Positions 1 to 11,152 of a DNA stretch of 48,641 nt are shown here, piece by piece; the stretch's first letter is position 1; every line of letters starts with the position of its first letter. The notes under the pieces were generated by a model. That model was not told the DNA's origin, searched no databases, and saw only the letters and a program-made list of their open reading frames with translations. The DNA comes from Bdellovibrio sp. (GTDB lineage: Bacteria > Bdellovibrionota > Bdellovibrionia > Bdellovibrionales > Bdellovibrionaceae). The translations under genes were made by a program, and so were the position numbers. Where the stretch lies: assembly GCA_020720425.1 (NCBI GenBank), contig DYOP01000011.1:1-48641 (forward strand). The letters are read 5' to 3'.

Positions 1-1313
1 ACTTTTGTGTCATAATAAATAACTCGTCCAACATTCCATTTAAAAAGTTCTCCAAATATTAAATAGTCTAGCGGCGATGCCTGATAGTGGGGCGTAAGCC
101 AGGCCGTAGGCTTAATGCCAAGAGCTAGCATGGAGTGAAGCCCTTGTTCCATGCGATTCATAACCCATTCAACACTGTCTTCGGGGTTAACCGTGCTATT
201 TACGGCATCCCAAAACTCAAAATCGTCAGAGGACATTCCGGTATGGGGGTTTTTGTGTTGGCCCCACTGGTGGGTCACTCCGTGCCAAATATAAGAGTGA
301 CCTGCTTTTTTAATTTCTTTCATTAGCTCAACAAAGGCGACGTTATTTTCGCCAGCCTCATTAAAAATTCCTCGTCCTGAGCTGTCAAAAGGGTCAACGT
401 ACATGGGGACAATTGAGTAACTGGCTTTTATTTTTTCACTATTTAAAATTTTTATTACATCATAAACATAGCTGATTTCAATTTGTGGAAAAATATCTTC
501 AATTCGCATAAAACCATATTTTTGTTTATGGAGTGGTTTTTCATCTAAAATATCAAACAATAAATCAGCCACAATTAAAAAACGGTCTGCCTCGTGCATA
601 AAGCTAAAAGGAATGTCGGCAATATAGTAGCGATTTTTATTTTGCAAAATATAAGGTATTTTATCGGAGTTACCATTATGAATGAGTTCAGAAATAAGAA
701 CAGTATTTTTTGATAGCTCTAAGTTTTCGGATTTTTTTAAAATAACATTTTCAAAAGGAGCCATAAATTGATTGGGATTATCTCTAGAAAACTCGCCCCA
801 TTTATAAAACTGTTCACCTTTGTATGTTGCAAATTTATAAAATGTGGGACGACCTTGGTCGTCTTTTTTGTCAGTATCTAATTTTGTTAAGCCGCTGTAT
901 TTATAGCCAAAAATTTTTTCAAAATAATCTAATCCTGGCTTCCAAATAGAGTAACCCATCCAAATGACTTTTTTGTTGGTCTTACTAAAATCCGAAAAAA
1001 ACTCTTTAGGGATATTATTTTCAAAGTAGGAGCCTAAATAAAAACTAGCCTGACAGCGCTCAATATCTCCGGATTGATAAGACTCAATAGTCCCTTCGAT
1101 CAATTGATATTTTGGAAAGTGAGCCAGTATGTTTTGTAAAAAAATCGAATAGGTTTTTCCAAGCCAGTACTTTGAATCAGTCGATTGATCATAAAATATT
1201 TGAATGCACTTGGGAGATTTATCAAAAGATAAAGCCATAAGTGGGTGAGGTAACAGATAAGTACTAAATATAAAAATAAAAATTATTTTTTTAAGATTGA
1301 TTAGTGATTTCAT
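1..1313 (-). CDS. DUF2334-type putative polysaccharide deacetylase (partial, C-terminus beyond window)
   Basis: Reading the minus strand from the ATG at 1313 gives 437 codons without a stop to the window edge, so the 3' end is missing. The N-terminus (MKSLINLKKIIFIFIFSTYLL) is a signal peptide ending near 'PLMA', so the protein is exported. Around residue 270 there is an 'MRIEDIFP' acidic motif and around 343-348 'WHGVTHQ', the pattern of DUF2334 proteins, members of the NodB-like carbohydrate deacetylase superfamily (family knowledge). The start overlaps the 3' end of the glycosyltransferase gene by 23 bases, so the two are co-transcribed. I infer that it edits, for example deacetylates, the glycan made by that enzyme. 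The substrate cannot be read from sequence. Confidence 0.75.
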   Translation of the reverse strand, partial: MKSLINLKKIIFIFIFSTYLLPHPLMALSFDKSPKCIQIFYDQSTDSKYWLGKTYSIFLQNILAHFPKYQLIEGTIESYQSGDIERCQASFYLGSYFENNIPKEFFSDFSKTNKKVIWMGYSIWKPGLDYFEKIFGYKYSGLTKLDTDKKDDQGRPTFYKFATYKGEQFYKWGEFSRDNPNQFMAPFENVILKKSENLELSKNTVLISELIHNGNSDKIPYILQNKNRYYIADIPFSFMHEADRFLIVADLLFDILDEKPLHKQKYGFMRIEDIFPQIEISYVYDVIKILNSEKIKASYSIVPMYVDPFDSSGRGIFNEAGENNVAFVELMKEIKKAGHSYIWHGVTHQWGQHKNPHTGMSSDDFEFWDAVNSTVNPEDSVEWVMNRMEQGLHSMLALGIKPTAWLTPHYQASPLDYLIFGELFKWNVGRVIYYDTK

Positions 1314-2733
1314 TTGAAGAACTCCCTTTAATTTGAGGTTCATTTGATAAAACAACACCCATATTTTGAGCCATCAAATCGGCTTGAGCCTTAAAGTGGG
1401 CCGGAAGGCTGTGCTCAGTTTTAGACCAAGATAGGGCTTTGTTTCTTGATTTTGAAATTGCATATTGCATCAGAGCCCTATAGGTGGCAACTGTATTTAT
1501 AAAATTTGCAAGCCACCACCTCACAGGGGTCATAAGAGCTGTTTTTAAGTTGTGAACAATATAAACAGCAAACATGCGATGGTAAAGTCTAATAATAAAG
1601 GCAAAAAAGTTAAAAATTAATAAGGAGTTGAACCAATTATTATTTTCGATAGAAAGAGGGCTATACCCAAGTGCTTGTCTATAAACAAAAAATATTAAAA
1701 ACATAAAGGCAAATGTAACAACAAATGAGTTAATAAGGCCTCTGCGGTCTCTCCATAAAAAGTATTTGTTTAAAGGGGACCCATTCCACCCTAAAAACTC
1801 AATACCTTGAAAAATAATTCCAATACTCCAGCGGGTTTTTTGTTTAATTGAGGCTTTGATTGAGTTCGGAAAATACTCACGAGTGGCAATAAAATTGCGT
1901 TGATTATTGGTTTGATTCTCATAAAAACATAAAAATAAAGCCGTCATTTTTAAAAGGTGAACGCTGTGGCCTAAAAAATAATCTTCAGTTAATGCCGACT
2001 CTCTAAGGTAGCCCCCTTTATTGACTTCCATAAGTTTTAACATCAATCGCCTAGATAGGGCTGTGCCTGTGCCGGCTGAGGGTAATACCAAGCCCATTTT
2101 TGATCTTAATAGCATTTCACCTGTATGATGCTCGCTAAACTCATCCGAGTAGGTGTTACCAATAATCTCTTGTAATGAGCGATCAAATGAGTAAACCGGT
2201 ATTTGGATAAAGTCGGAATTGTTTATAAAGGTATTGATTAAAGGTAGCGATAGGGGGTGAATAACATCTTCTGAATCGTGCATTAAAAAGATGTCAAAAG
2301 ATATTTTAAGACTTTCTTCGGAGCTAAAAATTTGCCTGGCTACGACATTAAGCATTTGCCCCTTTGAGGTGGGGCCTGGCTTAGGGTTAATAACAGCATG
2401 TACTCTTGGATGCTGTTCAGATAGTCTTTTAGCAACGGCTAATGTAGCGGCATCATTCGGGTAAACCCCTAAGAAAAAATGAAAATTTTGATAATCTACA
2501 TTTTGTAAATTACCTAAAACCATATGTTCAATAACATCTTCCTCTTTCCAGTTAGCAACGAGAATGGCAATATTTTTTTGGGGCGAAGTTAAAAGAGTTT
2601 GCTTAAGGGCCAGTGTCAGTTTTTGAGGATGAGCCTTGTAAATAAACCTTAAAATATCAATTGTAAAATCATCAAGGGCCAAGAGGGACATGCTTATCAC
2701 TGAAAATAAAAGTAACAATTCGATCAGGTTCAC
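1291..2733 (-). CDS. NfrB-like membrane glycosyltransferase (GT2, processive type)
   Basis: A 480-residue inner-membrane family 2 glycosyltransferase. An N-terminal membrane segment (1-20) precedes a cytosolic GT domain with 'MHDSED' (151-156), 'TED' (249-251) and 'QKTRW' (298-302), the D,D,TED,QxxRW set of processive polymerases, then C-terminal membrane segments (about 335-400). Blocks such as 'YPND', 'PGPTSKG', 'FIQIPVYSFDR', 'YSDEFSEHH' and 'KYFLWRDRRG' closely resemble what I recall of E. coli NfrB, the phage N4 adsorption protein B that polymerises a ManNAc glycan. Similarity continues to 'WSKTEHSLP' (about 435). The C-terminal MshEN-type c-di-GMP domain of NfrB is absent; only about 40 unrelated residues follow. 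It overlaps the upstream gene by 4 bases (ATGA). Confidence 0.85.
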   Translation of the reverse strand: MNLIELLLLFSVISMSLLALDDFTIDILRFIYKAHPQKLTLALKQTLLTSPQKNIAILVANWKEEDVIEHMVLGNLQNVDYQNFHFFLGVYPNDAATLAVAKRLSEQHPRVHAVINPKPGPTSKGQMLNVVARQIFSSEESLKISFDIFLMHDSEDVIHPLSLPLINTFINNSDFIQIPVYSFDRSLQEIIGNTYSDEFSEHHTGEMLLRSKMGLVLPSAGTGTALSRRLMLKLMEVNKGGYLRESALTEDYFLGHSVHLLKMTALFLCFYENQTNNQRNFIATREYFPNSIKASIKQKTRWSIGIIFQGIEFLGWNGSPLNKYFLWRDRRGLINSFVVTFAFMFLIFFVYRQALGYSPLSIENNNWFNSLLIFNFFAFIIRLYHRMFAVYIVHNLKTALMTPVRWWLANFINTVATYRALMQYAISKSRNKALSWSKTEHSLPAHFKAQADLMAQNMGVVLSNEPQIKGSSSNEITNQS

Positions 2734-3512
2734 TCAAAGCTCCCTTCAATAAAAAAAGAAAACTCAGGGCCCATATTGTTTAAACTGTTTTTAATATCTA
2801 TTTTTTGATAGGCTAAAAAATTAAATCCAATATGTGGAGCCCAAAGTTTGACTAATGCCCCTGGTCTTACTTGGTAAGTTTCTGGTCCAAGTTGGGCTGA
2901 AGGGCTTGCCTGCCCCCATAATTGGGCCATTGGGCCAAAAGAAAGGCCATAAATTGAGTGAAAAAGAGGATAGGTCAGTCTTAGCCAGCCTGTTGAGATT
3001 GGCGAGTTGTCTATTTGCGAAATTAAAATCAAATCATAATAATGATCAAGCTCAAGTTGGTGAGTTTGACTTATGGAAAATGATTTAAAACCGCCCCCCC
3101 AAAAGCCCAGTCTATCTTGGGGTTGGCCAACTTGCGATAAGCCAAAGAGCCAGCGGTTTTCGGCAAAAAACCAAAGGTTTAGTGGATCATAAAGCTTTGA
3201 TTTTAAACCGACAGAAGGACCATAAAAGTAGGGATTTGAATATAGGCCAAAATAGGGTTTAATAGCCCCCGAGAACAGAGTTAAATCATCTAAGAAAATA
3301 CGAATTCGGTTTTCAGAAAGCAAGACTTGAGAAGGATTTTCTTGAGGCGCTAAAATTGATTGAAAGTAATACTCAAAATGTGCAGCAAGTAAGACTTGAG
3401 GTGAGAGAGCTAATAGAGCAAGGCTTAGGAGCAGAGTTTGAAAATAACAGCGACCATGAAAGTAGGATTTTTTTAGTATTGGCCTTTTGTCATTAGGGTA
3501 ACAATTGAGCAT
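2730..3512 (-). CDS. Exported protein, probable outer-membrane beta-barrel of the glycan locus
   Basis: 260 residues. A basic N-terminus followed by a long hydrophobic run (LLLSLALLALSPQVLLAA) is a signal peptide. The mature part has many alternating aromatic/polar short strands (for example 'LWFFAENRWLFGLSQV', 'GWLRLTYPLFHSIYGLSFG', 'PHIGFNFLAYQKIDIK') and no cytosolic domain, which fits an outer-membrane barrel of roughly 10-14 strands. It is the first gene of the operon with the NfrB-like enzyme (4-base overlap), the place taken by the outer-membrane partner NfrA in E. coli. I could not align it to NfrA, which is much larger and has repeats before its barrel; it could match only the barrel part. 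A run of seven C at 3094-3100 lies inside the gene. Confidence 0.6.
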   Translation of the reverse strand: MLNCYPNDKRPILKKSYFHGRCYFQTLLLSLALLALSPQVLLAAHFEYYFQSILAPQENPSQVLLSENRIRIFLDDLTLFSGAIKPYFGLYSNPYFYGPSVGLKSKLYDPLNLWFFAENRWLFGLSQVGQPQDRLGFWGGGFKSFSISQTHQLELDHYYDLILISQIDNSPISTGWLRLTYPLFHSIYGLSFGPMAQLWGQASPSAQLGPETYQVRPGALVKLWAPHIGFNFLAYQKIDIKNSLNNMGPEFSFFIEGSFE

Positions 3513-3595
3513 TTGACATTCCTAAGGGTTAACTGGTGCTATATTTATGTAAGTGCACTTACTACTCTAAATTATTACGATTACAAAGTGAGATC

Positions 3596-4756
3596 ATGGA
3601 AACTATTTTGATAAGTAAAAAATTCACACTTGGGGTTTTGTTTGGGACGCGTCCTGAGGCTATTAAAGTGGCTCGGTTGATTGATTATTACAAAAATTCA
3701 GCTCATTTTGAGATAGTTGCTATATCCACGGGACAGCATCAAGAGATGATGAGACCTATTTTGGATTTTTTTTCAATTAAAGAAGACATCAATTTAAATA
3801 TCATGAAACCAGGTCAAACCGTTTTTGATGTGGTTGTGGCAACTATGGAAGGTTTAGGTAAACAGTCAAAGGGGCTAAAACTTGATGGCCTTTTTGTTCA
3901 GGGGGATACGGCCTCATGCATGGCAGGCAGCATTTGGGGTTTTTTAAATAAAATCCCTGTTTTTCATATTGAGGCGGGGTTAAGGTCAGGTAACATTTAT
4001 CAGCCGTGGCCTGAAGAATATAACAGGAGAGTCACAGGCCAAGCCGCCTCGATTCACTTTGCTCCAACCCAAGGGTCAGCTCAAAATTTAATTAATGAGG
4101 GCTTTAATAAAGATTCGATTTATGTTGTGGGTAACACGGTCATTGACAGTTTAAAATATGTAACGGATCAGCTTAAAAGCAATCCCTTGTTGGCGGATTA
4201 TCCTGAAAAGAAAATTATAAATCAGTGGAAGTCTGAAAATAAAAAGTTAATTTTACTCACGGTTCATAGGCGCGAAAGCATTGGCGATGAGATGAGGCAG
4301 ATATTTAAAGCGATTCGGTTTTTATCAGAGCAGCCTGATGTGAAAATTATTTTGCCTCTTCATTTAAATCCAGCGGTTCAAGAGGCGGCAAAAGAAGTAT
4401 TAGCGGGAAGCCAGGTGTTAATTACGCCCCCTTTATCTTATGTGCCCTTTATTGATGTCATGAGTAAATGTCGGTTTGTTCTTTCTGACTCGGGCGGGGT
4501 GCAAGAAGAAGCTCCCAGTTTAGGTAAGCCCGTGCTTGTTCTTCGTAAAACAACCGAACGTCCCGAAGGGGTTGCTGCGGGCACCTGTGAGCTGGTTGGG
4601 TCAGATGAAAAGCTGATTATAAATAAATCTCTTGAGCTTTTAAATAACGATCAAGTATTGGCAACAAAGGCAAAAATTCAAAATCCCTATGGCGATGGGA
4701 CATCCTGTCTGCAAATAGCCAATATTGTTGAGAAGTTTTTATCAACCAAATTATGA
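3596..4756 (+). CDS. wecB: UDP-N-acetylglucosamine 2-epimerase (non-hydrolysing)
   Basis: Cytosolic enzyme interconverting UDP-GlcNAc and UDP-ManNAc. 386 residues from the ATG at 3596; the frame opens at an upstream GTG (3536), but the added 20 residues (Cys/Tyr-rich) are not family-like, and the family block 'FGTRPEAIK' starts at about residue 16 from this ATG. Further signatures are 'HIEAGLRSGNIYQPWPEE', 'NTVIDSL', 'LTVHRRES', 'DSGGVQEEAPSLGKPVLVLR' and 'TTERPEGV'. Length is normal. It is divergent from the NfrB-like operon with starts about 85 bases apart, and UDP-ManNAc is the donor reported for the E. coli Nfr glycan, so supplying that pathway is a natural inferred role. The 'weak' RBS is GTGAG just upstream. 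Confidence 0.93.
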   Translation: METILISKKFTLGVLFGTRPEAIKVARLIDYYKNSAHFEIVAISTGQHQEMMRPILDFFSIKEDINLNIMKPGQTVFDVVVATMEGLGKQSKGLKLDGLFVQGDTASCMAGSIWGFLNKIPVFHIEAGLRSGNIYQPWPEEYNRRVTGQAASIHFAPTQGSAQNLINEGFNKDSIYVVGNTVIDSLKYVTDQLKSNPLLADYPEKKIINQWKSENKKLILLTVHRRESIGDEMRQIFKAIRFLSEQPDVKIILPLHLNPAVQEAAKEVLAGSQVLITPPLSYVPFIDVMSKCRFVLSDSGGVQEEAPSLGKPVLVLRKTTERPEGVAAGTCELVGSDEKLIINKSLELLNNDQVLATKAKIQNPYGDGTSCLQIANIVEKFLSTKL

Positions 4757-5982: not shown

Positions 5983-6756
5983 TTATTTGTACAAAATAGA
6001 TATAATAATAGCTGCGCCAATGACAATTCTATACCAGCCAAAATGCTTAAGGCCATATTTGGATAATACACTCAGTAACCCTTTGATACTTAGGGTTGCA
6101 AAAACAAAAGAAAGCGTTAGGCCCAGTAAAATAAAATCTAATTGGGATGAGTTTATGCTGGGGATAATTTTATAGCCTTTATAAAGTCCTGCGGCCATAA
6201 GGGTTGGGACTGCCAAGAAAAAAGAATACTCGGTAGCTTCTTTTTGGTTAAGCCCAATATTGAGGCCTCCAATAATTGTAGCTGCAGATCTTGATACGCC
6301 TGGTATAAAGGCAAAACATTGAATGAATCCTAAAATAAGAGCTTGCTTGTAAGAAATAGAATTTAGACTCACCTTTGCCTCGGAATAAGAGGACTTTTGG
6401 TCATAAAAAATTAAAACAATTCCACCTAAAAATAAAGCTAATGCCACAACCAGTACATGATTTAAAAGGGCTTCAATTTGGTTTTTAAAAATAAGTCCAA
6501 TAAAAGCCGCTGGTAAAAAAGAAGTTAATATTTTGAGATAAAATTGAATTCGAATTGGGAAAAATTTTTTCCGGTATAAAAAAAGAACCGATAAAATAGC
6601 TCCAAATTGAATAATAATATTAAAACTTTGAACAAAAGTATCATTGTTAATGCCCATAGCAGTTGAAAATAAAATCAAATGCCCAGTGGATGAAATGGGT
6701 AAAAATTCAGTAATACCTTCAATTAGAGAAAGTAAAATAACGTCTAAATATGTCAT
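5983..6756 (-). CDS. uppP: Undecaprenyl-diphosphatase (BacA/UppP family)
   Basis: 257-residue multi-span membrane enzyme that dephosphorylates undecaprenyl diphosphate so the lipid carrier can be reused for peptidoglycan and surface glycans; its loss raises bacitracin sensitivity (family knowledge). The first signature 'EGITEFLPISSTGHL' (about 13-27) and the second 'PGVSRSAATIIGGL' (about 153-166) are intact, and about eight hydrophobic segments are visible. Length matches the family. The start is the ATG at 6756 with GAGG about 11 bases upstream. It is monocistronic by layout, divergent from the subtilase gene. Confidence 0.95.
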   Translation of the reverse strand: MTYLDVILLSLIEGITEFLPISSTGHLILFSTAMGINNDTFVQSFNIIIQFGAILSVLFLYRKKFFPIRIQFYLKILTSFLPAAFIGLIFKNQIEALLNHVLVVALALFLGGIVLIFYDQKSSYSEAKVSLNSISYKQALILGFIQCFAFIPGVSRSAATIIGGLNIGLNQKEATEYSFFLAVPTLMAAGLYKGYKIIPSINSSQLDFILLGLTLSFVFATLSIKGLLSVLSKYGLKHFGWYRIVIGAAIIISILYK

Positions 6757-6853
6757 ATAAGTGTATTACCTCGTAAGTTGCAAATTGAGTCAAGGGTCGT
6801 GCTGTCTGAAAATTACGATTTTTGGCCCCATATTTTTTGTATGACCAAGGGGT

Positions 6854-6923
6854 GATGTCAGAATAAAAAAATTTAACTAACAAGAGATGTCATCTATTTT
6901 TTTATTGGCTAATGTCAGGACAT
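6854..6923. promoter_or_regulatory. Dyads and repeated GATGTCA motifs between uppP and the subtilase gene
   Basis: The 228-base divergent intergenic region holds a perfect 11-base inverted repeat (AATAAAAAAAT at 6862-6872, ATTTTTTTATT at 6896-6906), three (G/A)ATGTCA copies (6854, 6886, 6911) and a 5-2-5 palindrome ATGTC-AG-GACAT (6912-6923). The arrangement suggests operator sites for one or both genes, but no regulator family is recognised and AT-rich repeats arise easily by chance. Confidence 0.3.
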
Positions 6924-6974
6924 GGTTAGGCTATAGCGATATTGCTACTGAGTTGTAGGTAGCTATAAACATAA

Positions 6975-6984
6975 GGGGGGGGGG
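6975..6984 (+). repeat. G10 homopolymer abutting a start codon
   Basis: Ten consecutive G residues lie directly before the ATG of the subtilase gene (6985). It occupies the place of the ribosome binding site. In AT-rich DNA a G10 tract is unexpected, and such tracts commonly change length by strand slippage, so it may tune or switch translation. The repeat itself is seen directly; the switching role is inference. Confidence 0.9.
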
Positions 6985-8505
6985 ATGTTTAACATAAAAT
7001 ATATTTCTAAAATTGCGGTCGCTTTATCGCTTTTTTTAGGCGTCCAGGCGCAGTCAGCAGAAAACGAGTTTTTGGTTAAAATTAAAGATGAGTCTATTTT
7101 TTCTCAAATGCAAAAAGCTCATATTGAAATCAGTGATTATCATAAGGCGGGTCAGCTTTTGACAGTAACGATTTCTAAAAATGAGCAGTTAGAAAAATTA
7201 ATATGGTTCTATTCTAATCCGCTTGTTCAGTATGTTGTGCCAAACTCTGAGCTAGAAGCTTTTGATGTGCCGCTGGATTTTTCTAAACTAAAAACGCAGT
7301 ATGCTCTTTCTAATATTAAAGCTCAAAAAGCATGGGAAATTGCGGGTAACAAGGGTTTGAAGTCAGTTGTGGTAGCCGTCATTGATACGGGTGTTGATTA
7401 TAAACATAAAAACCTTTCTCCTAATATGGTAGAAGGTTATGATTTTGCTCGTAATGATTCAGACCCTATGGATGAAATTGGCCGCTCAAACCCAGGTCAT
7501 GGGACTCACTGTGCAGGGATAATAGGAGCGACCGGTCTTATTGAGGGCGGAATTGTTGGAATAGCTCCAGGCATTTCTCTTATGCCGCTTCGTTTTTTAG
7601 ATCAAAATGGTCGTGGTGACTTTGGTAACGCAGTTAAAGCAATTGATTATGCTATTGAACAAAAAGTACAAATTATTAGCGCTTCTTGGGGTGGGCGAAT
7701 TAATCAAGCTATGGCAACGCCTTTGATTGAAGCTATTGAAAGAGCCAATCAGACTGGCATTTTATTTGTTGTTGCGGCTGCAAATGACGGTAAAAATAAT
7801 GATACTTATGATGTTTTTCCGGCTAACGCACCTGTTGAAAATGTACTAACAGTTGCCGCTTCTAATTCGAAAGGTGAAAAGCCGACTTGGTCAAATTTTG
7901 GAAAAGGCAAAGTTCATATTGCTTCGCCAGGTGATGCTATCGTTTCAACTTTGCCAAATGATGCTTATGGTCCGTTATCGGGGACTTCAATGGCAACTCC
8001 CCTTGTGGCAGGTTTAGCAGCTCTTGTTAAATCGCAGGATGGTTCGATTACTCCTTTGCATATGAAGTCCCTTCTTCAAGCCTCAGCTCATGAGTCTTCT
8101 GTGGTAACAGCCTGCGGTTGCGAAATTGATGCAGCTGAAGCTGTGAACTTTGCTAAAAATAAGTTACCCTATATTCATCCGCAAGCCGCTTCTTTAAAAG
8201 TTAACGAGACAACGACTTTTGAAGTGGTCAACGGTGCTGAAGAAAATTTTGAATTTAATGTCAGTGACACGTCAAAGGCAAATATCGATGCGAAAACGGG
8301 AAAGTTAAATGCTCTTCAAGCAGGCGATATCATCGTAAATGCAGTTGATAAAGAATCGGCACAGGTTCTGCACTCTCGAATCATAAGAATTTTAAAGGCT
8401 AACGGTTCAGAGCAAAAACCTGCCGCTCAATGTCCATTTGATAGCCCTGAGTTATGCAATGGTTTGTGTTACTTTATTCCCATATTACCTTGGTGTACAA
8501 AGTAA
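6985..8505 (+). CDS. Secreted subtilisin-like serine protease (S8) with Ig-like domain
   Basis: 506 residues. Signal peptide at 1-25 (SLFLGVQAQSA), then an inhibitor-I9-like propeptide region (about 27-90, 'NEFLVKIKDES'), then the S8 catalytic domain with Asp in 'VIDTGVDY' (about 130), His in 'GHGTHCAG' (about 173), the oxyanion Asn in 'AAANDG' and Ser in 'SGTSMATP' (about 335). All catalytic residues are present. After about 390 comes a short Ig-like (BIG2-like) region ('AASLKVNETTTFEV...') and a cysteine-rich tail ('CPFDSPELCNGLCYF', '...PWCTK') that may be disulphide-bonded. It is predicted to be exported, autoprocessed and to degrade proteins outside the cell or on the surface. It is followed after 26 bases by a FadL-family gene, a likely operon. 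Confidence 0.92.
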   Translation: MFNIKYISKIAVALSLFLGVQAQSAENEFLVKIKDESIFSQMQKAHIEISDYHKAGQLLTVTISKNEQLEKLIWFYSNPLVQYVVPNSELEAFDVPLDFSKLKTQYALSNIKAQKAWEIAGNKGLKSVVVAVIDTGVDYKHKNLSPNMVEGYDFARNDSDPMDEIGRSNPGHGTHCAGIIGATGLIEGGIVGIAPGISLMPLRFLDQNGRGDFGNAVKAIDYAIEQKVQIISASWGGRINQAMATPLIEAIERANQTGILFVVAAANDGKNNDTYDVFPANAPVENVLTVAASNSKGEKPTWSNFGKGKVHIASPGDAIVSTLPNDAYGPLSGTSMATPLVAGLAALVKSQDGSITPLHMKSLLQASAHESSVVTACGCEIDAAEAVNFAKNKLPYIHPQAASLKVNETTTFEVVNGAEENFEFNVSDTSKANIDAKTGKLNALQAGDIIVNAVDKESAQVLHSRIIRILKANGSEQKPAAQCPFDSPELCNGLCYFIPILPWCTK

Positions 8506-8531
8506 TATAAAAATTGATTAGGTGGAATATA

Positions 8532-9830
8532 ATGGAGAGTGCTTACTTTATTGAGGTATTATCAAAAAAAGGTTTTAAAGCTTTTAAGATAGTAACATTT
8601 TTGTGGGCACTCCTTTTTTGTTCAAATAAAAGTTATTCGCAAAATTTAAATCTTCAAAGTCTTCTTATCGGAGATCAAGCGGCCGGGATGGGGGGCGCCT
8701 ACACAGCCCTTTTTAGTGATGCATCTGCTGCTTCTTACTATAACCCAGCGGCATTGGGTTTTATCAATGAAGAGTCTGTTTCGGCCTCAGTCGGTGTTTT
8801 TAAAAAATTTGATATTCACTATGGAGACAGTGCGGATATTGTTTCGGCGTCATTAAAAATGAATCAGGGCTTTTTTAGGGCCGTTCCGGCCTCGACGGCA
8901 GCGGTATTAAAAACTGAAATATTTGATTGGCTAAAGCCTTACACATTAGCATTTTCAATTATTGTTCCTGAGTATGACGAATTCAAAGGTGATCTATATC
9001 GGTCAGAATCAAATGTTGCAACTTTAGATTATAAAATCGAAAGCCTTTGGGTGGGGGGATCAATTGCCAAAAAACTATCCCCAACGCAATCTGTGGGATT
9101 ATCACTTTATTATGTGGCCAGGACTTTCTCATCTAATGAGGTTCAACGAAGCTCCGGTGGGAGTTGGTATTTTGATTCTGAAACAAGAACGTTTAAACAT
9201 AATTATGTTTTACCCATCATAGGTTACCAAGCTGAGATTGACTCGAGCTGGAGATGGGGGATAACAGTTTTTGGACCATCATTAAAAATTGCAGGCGAGG
9301 GTGAGCGTGAGAGCTTGCATATTGATAGTACGGGGATTACTTCGGAGACTCCAGAAACCGGAGTTTCAAGCTTTATGGGGCGACCCATGCAGATTAATTT
9401 AGGATTAAACTATTTAATTAACCGCTGGAGTATTGCGTTTGATATTAAGCATTCTCTTGGGCAAGAGGCTGTTGATTTTGAAGGTAAACCCTACGCTCAA
9501 AATTATTCGTTTAAACCAATAACAAATATTTCTTTAGGTTCAGAGTATATTTTGCAAGATAACCTTCATTTAAGAGCTGGAATTTTTAGTGATTTTAGTC
9601 CTCACGAAAGTCAGCGTATTTTAGTCTATCAAAACCAGGCTGATTATATTGACCAAGGGGGATTTTCTGCGAACGTTGTTTATAAACAAAAAAATATGCA
9701 ATACACCTTTGGAGGTTACTATTTGGGCGGCAAGGGGCACTCATGGCATAAAGTGCAAAATAATATAATCGAACTCTCTAAGCAATCTCATGTTTTTACA
9801 ATGTTAGTGGGCGTTCATTACAGCATGTAA
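8532..9830 (+). CDS. FadL/OmpP1/TodX-family outer-membrane protein
   Basis: 432 residues from the ATG at 8532, which has AGGTGG six bases upstream; the frame extends to a TTG at 8514 without benefit. A hydrophobic segment (about 20-33) ending 'SNKSYSQ' acts as signal peptide. The mature N-terminus carries 'GDQAAGMGGAYTALFSDASA' and 'YYNPAALGF', the hallmark of FadL-type transporters for hydrophobic compounds (fatty acids, aromatics). The rest is strand-rich, and the C-terminus 'VFTMLVGVHYSM' looks like a barrel end strand. Substrate is not deducible. It lies 26 bases after the subtilase and probably shares its transcript. Confidence 0.85.
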   Translation: MESAYFIEVLSKKGFKAFKIVTFLWALLFCSNKSYSQNLNLQSLLIGDQAAGMGGAYTALFSDASAASYYNPAALGFINEESVSASVGVFKKFDIHYGDSADIVSASLKMNQGFFRAVPASTAAVLKTEIFDWLKPYTLAFSIIVPEYDEFKGDLYRSESNVATLDYKIESLWVGGSIAKKLSPTQSVGLSLYYVARTFSSNEVQRSSGGSWYFDSETRTFKHNYVLPIIGYQAEIDSSWRWGITVFGPSLKIAGEGERESLHIDSTGITSETPETGVSSFMGRPMQINLGLNYLINRWSIAFDIKHSLGQEAVDFEGKPYAQNYSFKPITNISLGSEYILQDNLHLRAGIFSDFSPHESQRILVYQNQADYIDQGGFSANVVYKQKNMQYTFGGYYLGGKGHSWHKVQNNIIELSKQSHVFTMLVGVHYSM

Positions 9831-9858
9831 AATCAAATAGTATGTTTTATAAAATTAA

Positions 9859-10101
9859 TTAATTTAGGTTTTGCCCAATACGTGATGTTTCAATTAATTT
9901 TTGGGTCATTTGAGAGGCCCTGTTAGATGATTTGTGAACCTTGTATTTTTTACTGTCTAAGATTTTTTTTGCTTTCATATGGTTTTGAGAAGAAATAGTT
10001 CTTGTATTGGTTGGTTGGCCTAAGTCATTAGAATGAGTTACCAACAATGAAGATATTATAATGACAATAATTGAAAATGAAATTTTAATTAGATCTTTCA
10101 T
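9859..10101 (-). CDS. Small exported or membrane-anchored hypothetical protein
   Basis: 80 residues from the ATG at 10101, preferred over a GTG- or ATG-type start further upstream because AAGGAT lies seven bases before it. The N-terminus has one hydrophobic stretch (ISFSIIVIIISSLLVTHS, about 6-23), a signal peptide or anchor, followed by a basic, Ser/Lys-rich tail (MKAKKILDSKKYKVHKSS). No family recognised. It follows flagellin on the same strand but is separated from it by a 15-base-pair hairpin, so it is probably expressed separately or at a reduced level. Confidence 0.5.
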   Translation of the reverse strand: MKDLIKISFSIIVIIISSLLVTHSNDLGQPTNTRTISSQNHMKAKKILDSKKYKVHKSSNRASQMTQKLIETSRIGQNLN

Positions 10102-10249
10102 AAATGCATCCTTATTTCCGGTTATATGAGGTGAGTGTCTACAAGCACTCAAGCCATGTAGGGCATATAGGATGCCAAATCTAAATCTAAATGGATAGAT
10201 CCTAAGCCAAAGGTCTTAATAAAAAATTCATACGGGATGCGCAAAATGT

Positions 10250-10285
10250 AATCTGCACAAATGAAGCTAATCATTTGTGCAGATT
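10250..10285 (-). terminator. Perfect 15-bp hairpin downstream of flagellin
   Basis: The arms 10250-10264 and 10271-10285 are exact reverse complements (AATCTGCACAAATGA and its complement) around a 6-base loop. On the minus strand it starts 34 bases after the flagellin stop and is followed by ACATTTTG, a weak T stretch. It is best read as the flagellin transcript's terminator or a 3' stabilising structure. Because the arms are perfect, a protein-binding palindrome is also possible. Confidence 0.65.
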
Positions 10286-10318
10286 TTAGTTAGGTAGCTG
10301 GCTATTTATTTTTTCTGA

Positions 10319-11152
10319 TTAGCCAATCAGTTTAAGAGCCACTTGAGCAGAACTATTTGCCTGTGAAAGGGTTGAGGCACCAGCCTGAAGTAGGATCTGG
10401 TTTCGAACCATTTCAGAAGAAGCTTGTGCAACATCGGTATCACGAACTCGAGAATTGGCAGCCGAAAGATTTTCTTCTTGAACTGCTAAATTATCTATAG
10501 TCGAGGTTAGTCGGTTTTGCAGAGCTCCCAGGTTAGAGCGATACCCGTTAACTGTATTCTGAGCTTCATCAAGTAAGTTTAAAGCTTCTTGAGAGCCCTC
10601 TTTTGTCGTATAGTCTAGACTATCAATACCAAGAGCGTCTAAGGTAGCCACATTCATTGAGGAATCAAAAGAAATTCGATCTTCTTCTTCAGAGTTGAAA
10701 AGTCCAATTTGAAAATCAAACTGAGGAGTTGATCCATCTAAAAGGTTTGTTGTCCCCCATTTAGTTGTTTTAGCGATTCGATTGACTTCAGCTTTAAGTT
10801 GATCCACCTCTTTATTGATGAATGATCTTTCTGTGTCTGAAACCGTATCTGACGCTGATTGAATTCCTAATTCTCTAAGTCGTGTTACCATGTTTCCAAT
10901 TTCATTCAAACCGCCTTCAGCTGTCTGAACCATTGAAATTCCATCATTCGCATTTCGATTGGCTTGACGAGCTGAGCGGATCTGAGATTTTAATCTCTCA
11001 GAAATCGCAAGACCCGCGGCATCATCTGCTGCGATGTTAATGCGTGATCCAGAGGCTAGCTGCCCCATGGATTTCCCCATGGCTCGCTGGGCTCCAGCTA
11101 AGTTCCTTTGGGTGTTGATAGCCGATATGTTTGTACTTACTCTCATGCCCAT
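10319..11152 (-). CDS. fliC: Flagellin
   Basis: 277-residue filament subunit. The N-terminal D0/D1 region ('MRVSTNISAINTQRNL', 'LASGSRINIAADDAAGLAISERL', 'RNANDGISMVQTAEGGLNEI') and C-terminal D1/D0 region ('TVNGYRSNLGALQNRL', 'AASEMVRNQILLQAGASTLSQAN'-like) are complete, joined by a short middle (about 140-190) with no D2/D3 insert. This size is typical of Bdellovibrio-type flagellins, which form multi-flagellin filaments under a sheath (family knowledge). The start at 11152 is supported by AGGAGGT five bases upstream. A sigma-28 promoter lies about 90 bases upstream and a hairpin lies downstream. No other flagellar genes are adjacent. Confidence 0.97.
   Translation of the reverse strand: MGMRVSTNISAINTQRNLAGAQRAMGKSMGQLASGSRINIAADDAAGLAISERLKSQIRSARQANRNANDGISMVQTAEGGLNEIGNMVTRLRELGIQSASDTVSDTERSFINKEVDQLKAEVNRIAKTTKWGTTNLLDGSTPQFDFQIGLFNSEEEDRISFDSSMNVATLDALGIDSLDYTTKEGSQEALNLLDEAQNTVNGYRSNLGALQNRLTSTIDNLAVQEENLSAANSRVRDTDVAQASSEMVRNQILLQAGASTLSQANSSAQVALKLIG

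Follow-up and report, generated by a model that had tools for sequence, protein, structure and literature searches.

Bdellovibrio sp. (assembly GCA_020720425.1) carries, at one end of contig DYOP01000011.1 (C186), a group of genes that points to the synthesis of a surface polysaccharide of N-acetylmannosamine (ManNAc). The window analysed is this whole contig (48,641 bases), in a genome of 2.6 Mb, 203 contigs and 99.4% completeness. Positions 1-4756 hold a minus-strand operon of three overlapping genes, transcribed in the order outer-membrane-type gene, family 2 glycosyltransferase (GT2) gene and DUF2334 gene (the first two overlap by 4 bases, and the third also overlaps the glycosyltransferase gene), together with wecB, which diverges from the operon on the plus strand (Table 1). 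The original prediction, which described a candidate poly-ManNAc locus from these four genes, is borne out as to their positions, overlaps and orientation, but the locus is larger than was thought: the DUF2334 gene is incomplete at the contig end, the operon extends past the window, and a GH113-like hydrolase gene, described below, probably also belongs to it. A scan of the region between the divergent genes gave no promoter-like site in excess over shuffles.

Table 1. Features of the candidate polysaccharide locus in the window.
Feature	Position	Strand	Basis
DUF2334 protein, N-terminal ~436 residues	3..1313 (start approximate)	-	PF10096, 95.5 bits; alignment with full-length relatives
NfrB-like processive GT2 polymerase, 480 residues	1291..2733	-	NfrB profile; 35% identity to E. 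coli NfrB
Outer-membrane 12-strand beta-barrel, 260 residues, candidate export pore without TPR domain	2730..3512	-	AlphaFold model; homology to relatives
wecB, UDP-GlcNAc 2-epimerase	Open reading frame 3536-4756, likely ATG at 3596	+	TIGR00236
Divergent intergenic/promoter region, wecB versus operon	3513..3595	.	Gene layout

Polymerase, sugar-nucleotide supply and outer-membrane barrel

The GT2 enzyme scores 144.5 bits in a family profile search and is 35% identical to Escherichia coli NfrB over residues 24-479, the whole glycosyltransferase domain (E 2e-85), whereas it barely matches PgaC (E 0.004) and does not match BcsA. In a tree, NfrB and all the Bdellovibrionaceae glycosyltransferases fall in one clade of 47 (support 0.98) that excludes PgaC and BcsA, as well as the PgaC-like synthases found at other DUF2334 loci; a PgaC- or BcsA-like identity is rejected by these comparisons, and the NfrB-like identity first proposed stands. 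Equivalents of NfrB D169, D267 and W330, which are needed in E. coli NfrB according to mutational analysis (PMC8669469), are kept in 48/48 sequences, the window enzyme included. Scores against the NfrB equivalog NF008411 (349 bits, E 5e-104; cut-off 1170) and the PRK14716.1-3 profile (397.8 bits; cut-off 409) stay below the cut-offs. Alignment with NfrB ends before the C-terminal MshEN domain for cyclic di-GMP (c-di-GMP); the window protein stops short of this domain and lacks its residues. Judged by its sequence, the enzyme is an NfrB-type synthase without the c-di-GMP module of NfrB. Since MshEN is absent, NfrB-type c-di-GMP control is not to be assumed, and control through that domain is rejected; of the c-di-GMP-dependent E. 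coli system with which the original prediction compared the locus, the synthase clade fits and the control module does not. A PDB sequence search with the glycosyltransferase and DUF2334 profiles returned nothing useful.

The product of wecB is assigned by TIGR00236 (388 bits; cut-off 210) and Epimerase_2 (340 bits), and would convert UDP-N-acetylglucosamine (UDP-GlcNAc) to UDP-ManNAc. A genome-wide search finds a single wecB, the one in this locus, and no nucleoside-diphosphate (NDP)-sugar dehydrogenase of the wecC type above cut-off in the whole genome; UDP-N-acetylmannosaminuronic acid (UDP-ManNAcA) and enterobacterial common antigen (ECA) are therefore not expected. In enterobacteria wecB does serve ECA and O-antigen synthesis (PMC8669472), and the gene might here likewise be part of an ECA, O-antigen or ManNAcA-capsule locus unrelated to the glycosyltransferase operon. 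This is very improbable, and largely refuted, by the lack of a dehydrogenase above cut-off, by scanned window neighbours that are not O-antigen genes, and by the way in which wecB tracks the glycosyltransferase across the family (see below); an ECA or O-antigen context, which would have told against the original prediction, is accordingly rejected.

The 260-residue outer-membrane protein has no family match in Pfam, has homologues at the equivalent place in the loci of relatives (best E 8e-10) and models as a 12-strand barrel (AlphaFold, mean pLDDT 82). In the PDB the model resembles the small sugar porins KdgM/NanC, OmpG and the PgaA barrel, at TM scores of only ~0.4-0.5. Against the NfrA_C profile hhalign gives a probability of 57-87%, and single-sequence controls, which are uninformative because E. 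coli NfrA_C itself is among those that fail, give no match; a profile likeness to the C-terminal barrel of NfrA is suggestive but poorly controlled. Where NfrA consists of a TPR part followed by the NfrA_C barrel, the window protein is a barrel without the TPR part. It is a candidate export pore, through which the polymer may cross the outer membrane.

The DUF2334 protein and a probable downstream hydrolase

The third gene of the operon matches PF10096 (DUF2334) with 95.5 bits against a cut-off of 26. The window copy comprises a signal peptide, a GATase/ThuA-like N-terminal domain and most of a CE4-type deacetylase domain; it lacks the C-terminal part of the ~590-residue proteins of relatives because the contig ends there (base 1). 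A full-length relative (587 residues; L055:10001-11761) models at pLDDT 90 (AlphaFold), and its best PDB matches are human NDST1 and several CE4 deacetylases; the CE4-type matches (3rxz, 2c71, 2c1g, 9f6z) have E values of 1e-7 to 1e-4 and moderate TM scores. Glutamine-amidotransferase and ThuA-like structures also match, and are taken to be the N-terminal domain. DUF2334 models as a two-domain protein with a CE4-type deacetylase fold. R250, E252, D253, H326, H330, H391 and Y392 (L055 numbering) are invariant in 28 diverse DUF2334 sequences; the E-D, H-x3-H and PHY motifs are all present in the window copy, and only the P of PHY varies among the 28. The invariant D253, H326 and H330 are consistent with a CE4-type D-H-H metal site. 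The protein would be a periplasmic, metal-dependent CE4-type enzyme with an N-terminal accessory domain, taking off some of the N-acetyl groups of the ManNAc polymer. NDST1, a heparan sulfate N-deacetylase, is the top PDB match of the L055 model, and a distant kinship between DUF2334 and NDST is possible.

Alternatively, the locus may make poly-ManNAc while DUF2334 acts in binding or export with no catalytic role, or as another CE4-fold enzyme such as a hydrolase or an O-deacetylase. Second-copy loci keep the N-terminal domain alone, so it has a role of its own where the deacetylase domain is missing; the structural matches include CE4 pseudoenzymes; and the role of Listeria PssB is not established (PMC6307706). 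Nevertheless, the invariance of the metal-binding-type D, H and H across the 28 sequences, and the closest structure being an N-deacetylase of a hexosamine polymer, make this alternative unlikely. In the searchable literature DUF2334 hardly appears: a single mention in passing turned up, and no open-access paper linking it to a polysaccharide. PssB and Bacillus subtilis YdaL are presumably DUF2334-type proteins.

In relatives the gene order is wecB, barrel, glycosyltransferase, DUF2334, a 570-residue protein (c7) and a GH113-like hydrolase. Contig C94 of the same genome begins inside a c7 homologue; after this come a GH113-like gene, whose counterpart in a relative is 60% identical, and then a pyrE-like gene. 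As this matches the downstream order of the relatives, C186 and C94 are probably neighbours, and C94 is the best candidate for the continuation of the operon; the gap would be about 1.5 kb and would encode the end of DUF2334 and the start of c7. No known family could be assigned to c7, and its comparison with NfrA gave nothing; by eye, c7 (L026:11791-13506) has a helical N-terminal part and two beta-rich C-terminal repeats. It may stand in for the TPR scaffold of NfrA.

The GH113-like protein, a clan-A hydrolase now probably on C94, would trim or release the chain. Glu180 and Glu335, which we take to be the catalytic positions, are invariant in 18/18 GH113-like sequences, and two other relatives have a GH26-like gene between the glycosyltransferase and DUF2334 genes. 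GH113 and GH26 are beta-mannanase families (PMC9032380), which hints at a backbone of beta-1,4-linked mannosamine. A second GH113-like gene in the same genome (L051:6306-7631, contig C116), 36% identical to a relative's GH113, lies away from any NfrB-like glycosyltransferase.

Distribution of the gene set

The glycosyltransferase occurs in 20/66 genomes of the family. A wecB scoring over 365 bits, here called strong, is present in all 20 of these versus 2/46 genomes without the glycosyltransferase (Fisher p 6e-15), and within genus g4 in 12/12 versus 1/12 (p 1e-5), the p-values being indicative only, as related genomes are not independent. Elsewhere in the phylum, neighbourhoods were seeded with the glycosyltransferase, which gave 33 loci. 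Of these, 14 extend for 6 kb or more to either side; all 14 contain DUF2334, 13 contain wecB, 12 the barrel and 9 GH113. In the whole set of 33, of which many are truncated at a contig end, DUF2334 is present in 24, wecB in 21, the barrel in 26 and GH113 in 14. DUF2334 and wecB thus do accompany NfrB homologues, as the original prediction had proposed to survey.

These counts bear on the possibility that the glycosyltransferase makes another hexosamine polymer, for example poly-GlcNAc, and that the adjacent WecB serves a separate pathway. The donor specificity of a GT2 synthase is not readable from its sequence, DUF2334 is also found beside PgaC-like synthases, and wecB is divergent here and unlinked to the glycosyltransferase in some relatives, for instance Bdellovibrio sp. 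qaytius (L060), which has both the glycosyltransferase and DUF2334. However, strong wecB correlates in presence and absence with the glycosyltransferase in the family; it is linked in 13/14 well-covered neighbourhoods outside the family; the locus holds the sole wecB of the genome, where a ManNAcA route is not apparent, as no NDP-sugar dehydrogenase reaches its cut-off; and the hydrolases are of mannanase type, not hydrolases of poly-N-acetylglucosamine (PNAG). On balance this alternative is quite improbable, and a ManNAc polymer is preferred.

A second type of barrel-glycosyltransferase locus is found in the Bdellovibrio-type genus, with DUF2334 reduced to the ~230-residue N-terminal domain (L029, L032, L034, L037, L044, L045, L053). 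In most of these loci, genes for a pst-type ABC transporter of phosphate and for NDP-sugar epimerases are close by. Three genomes have this deacetylase-less variant as an additional copy.

A genome-wide scan with DUF2334 as the seed, which reached beyond the phylum, yielded 61 loci. Halopseudomonas laoshanensis has DUF2334, wecB, an NfrB-like glycosyltransferase and a TPR-NfrA_C protein consecutively; a Burkholderiaceae strain has wecB, an NfrB-like glycosyltransferase (with a weak MshEN match just under cut-off), NfrA, DUF2334 and a GlmS-like gene together. In Bacteroidota, Desulfobacteraceae, Acidobacteria and Verrucomicrobia (L098, L103, L104, L107, L109) DUF2334 forms part of ~1,300-residue proteins beside wecB; the glycosyltransferase nearby is PgaC-like in Bacteroidota, and the others group with it in the tree. 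With either class of synthase, DUF2334 tends to go together with the sugar enzyme. Tentatively, and at a little less than even odds, DUF2334 could be a poly-ManNAc deacetylase family that at least two kinds of synthase, NfrB-like and PgaC-like, have separately taken up in many phyla, and that defines a Bdellovibrionota-wide, partly deacetylated and hence cationic beta-1,4-mannosaminan. The Bacteroidota ~1,300-residue protein also shows a weak Glyco_hydro_42M match.

A candidate exopolysaccharide system and its known counterparts

With a probability of about 0.7, the locus encodes a synthase-dependent exopolysaccharide system in which a ManNAc chain is made, partly N-deacetylated, trimmed and exported. 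The NfrB-like enzyme, in the inner membrane, would polymerise and translocate the chain; its substrate would be UDP-ManNAc and its product poly-ManNAc, the chemistry being deduced here as it is in E. coli. Gene content, family assignments, conserved residues, the uniqueness of wecB in the genome and the phylum-wide co-occurrence are direct observations; the sugar, the linkage, deacetylation, export and the joining of C94 are inferred from them. The components of such systems are represented: a synthase, a periplasmic modifying enzyme, a glycoside hydrolase (outside the window, on C94) and an outer-membrane pore.

Several points weigh against this reading. There is no chemistry for any NfrB product, and the link between C186 and C94 is itself deduced from gene order. 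The classical catalytic Asp of CE4 enzymes aligns with Glu in DUF2334 (an alignment by eye only), and the pseudoenzymes noted above are among the structural matches of the DUF2334 model. Two genomes of the family have a strong wecB without the glycosyltransferase; some relatives have the glycosyltransferase and wecB, yet no DUF2334 or its N-terminal domain alone; and 16 of the 41 long DUF2334-seeded loci have neither this glycosyltransferase nor wecB nearby.

Comparison with known systems suggests which parts are shared. The NfrB-NfrA-WecB system of E. coli, which makes the phage N4 receptor glycan NGR (PMC8669469, PMC8669472), shares with the window locus the GT2 clade of its synthase, the residues essential to that enzyme, and an operon of overlapping genes that includes an outer-membrane barrel, and depends on UDP-ManNAc, a dependence that wecB suggests here. 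In contrast to E. coli, the window locus has no MshEN domain, has a small barrel without the TPR scaffold of NfrA, adds DUF2334 and GH113, and has wecB at the locus itself instead of in the ECA cluster. Achromobacter xylosoxidans has a reported nfrA-nfrB-wecB cluster (PMC8669472), in which an NfrB-type polymerase and wecB are likewise grouped with modification and export genes; these include BcsB and O-acetyltransferase homologues, unlike the locus described here, and DUF2334 is not mentioned in that report.

The Pss polysaccharide of Listeria monocytogenes is poly-beta-1,4-ManNAc with alpha-1,6-galactose (PMC5039582, PMC11439720, PMC6307706), and its system has the same functional parts: a ManNAc polymer, PssB, which is listed as a deacetylase, and PssZ, a glycosidase of its own (PMC5039582, PMC6307706, PMC11439720). 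It differs in belonging to a Gram-positive bacterium, in its BcsB-like PssD and c-di-GMP receptor PssE, and in its synthase PssC, described as PNAG/cellulose-synthase-like (PMC4125290); the window glycosyltransferase is NfrB-type in a tree that sets it against PgaC- and BcsA-type proteins, PssC being compared by its description. PgaABCD, which makes PNAG, also combines a synthase, a periplasmic CE4 deacetylase and glycoside hydrolase, and an outer-membrane barrel; here, however, the synthase lies outside the PgaC clade, the hydrolase is GH113-like and a different sugar is expected.

By analogy, the best reading is that the locus joins an NfrB-type synthase to modules like those of Listeria Pss. 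The original prediction saw a possible variant glycan system in the proximity of polymerase and donor enzyme and in the possible added deacetylase. The co-occurrence holds, but linkage of an NfrB-type polymerase to wecB was already known from A. xylosoxidans (PMC8669472); likewise, a deacetylase is not known to be part of the E. coli system, but one has already been attributed to the poly-ManNAc of Listeria (PssB, PMC6307706). The gene set, with parts known from E. coli, Achromobacter and Listeria, is phylum-wide in Bdellovibrionota and unstudied there so far; no open-access paper tying Bdellovibrio to NfrB was found.

In E. coli it is still to be settled what NfrB makes in chemical terms. Bdellovibrionota bring candidates for the polymerase, the UDP-ManNAc enzyme, the deacetylase and the hydrolase together, making substrate, linkage and modification directly testable, and the hydrolase would serve as a tool for analysing the polymer. 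If the proposed system is correct, it would assign a function to DUF2334 and reveal, in relatives of Bdellovibrio, a conserved polymer of the cell surface that may also be a phage receptor; a partly deacetylated mannosaminan would be new to the literature on these bacteria, which are often predators.

A search for phage families gave nothing, and there is no sign of other polysaccharide genes among the scanned neighbours in the window (5983-11152). These encode BacA (UppP; 5983-6756), a subtilase (6985-8505), a FadL-like protein (8514-9830) and a flagellin (10319-11152).

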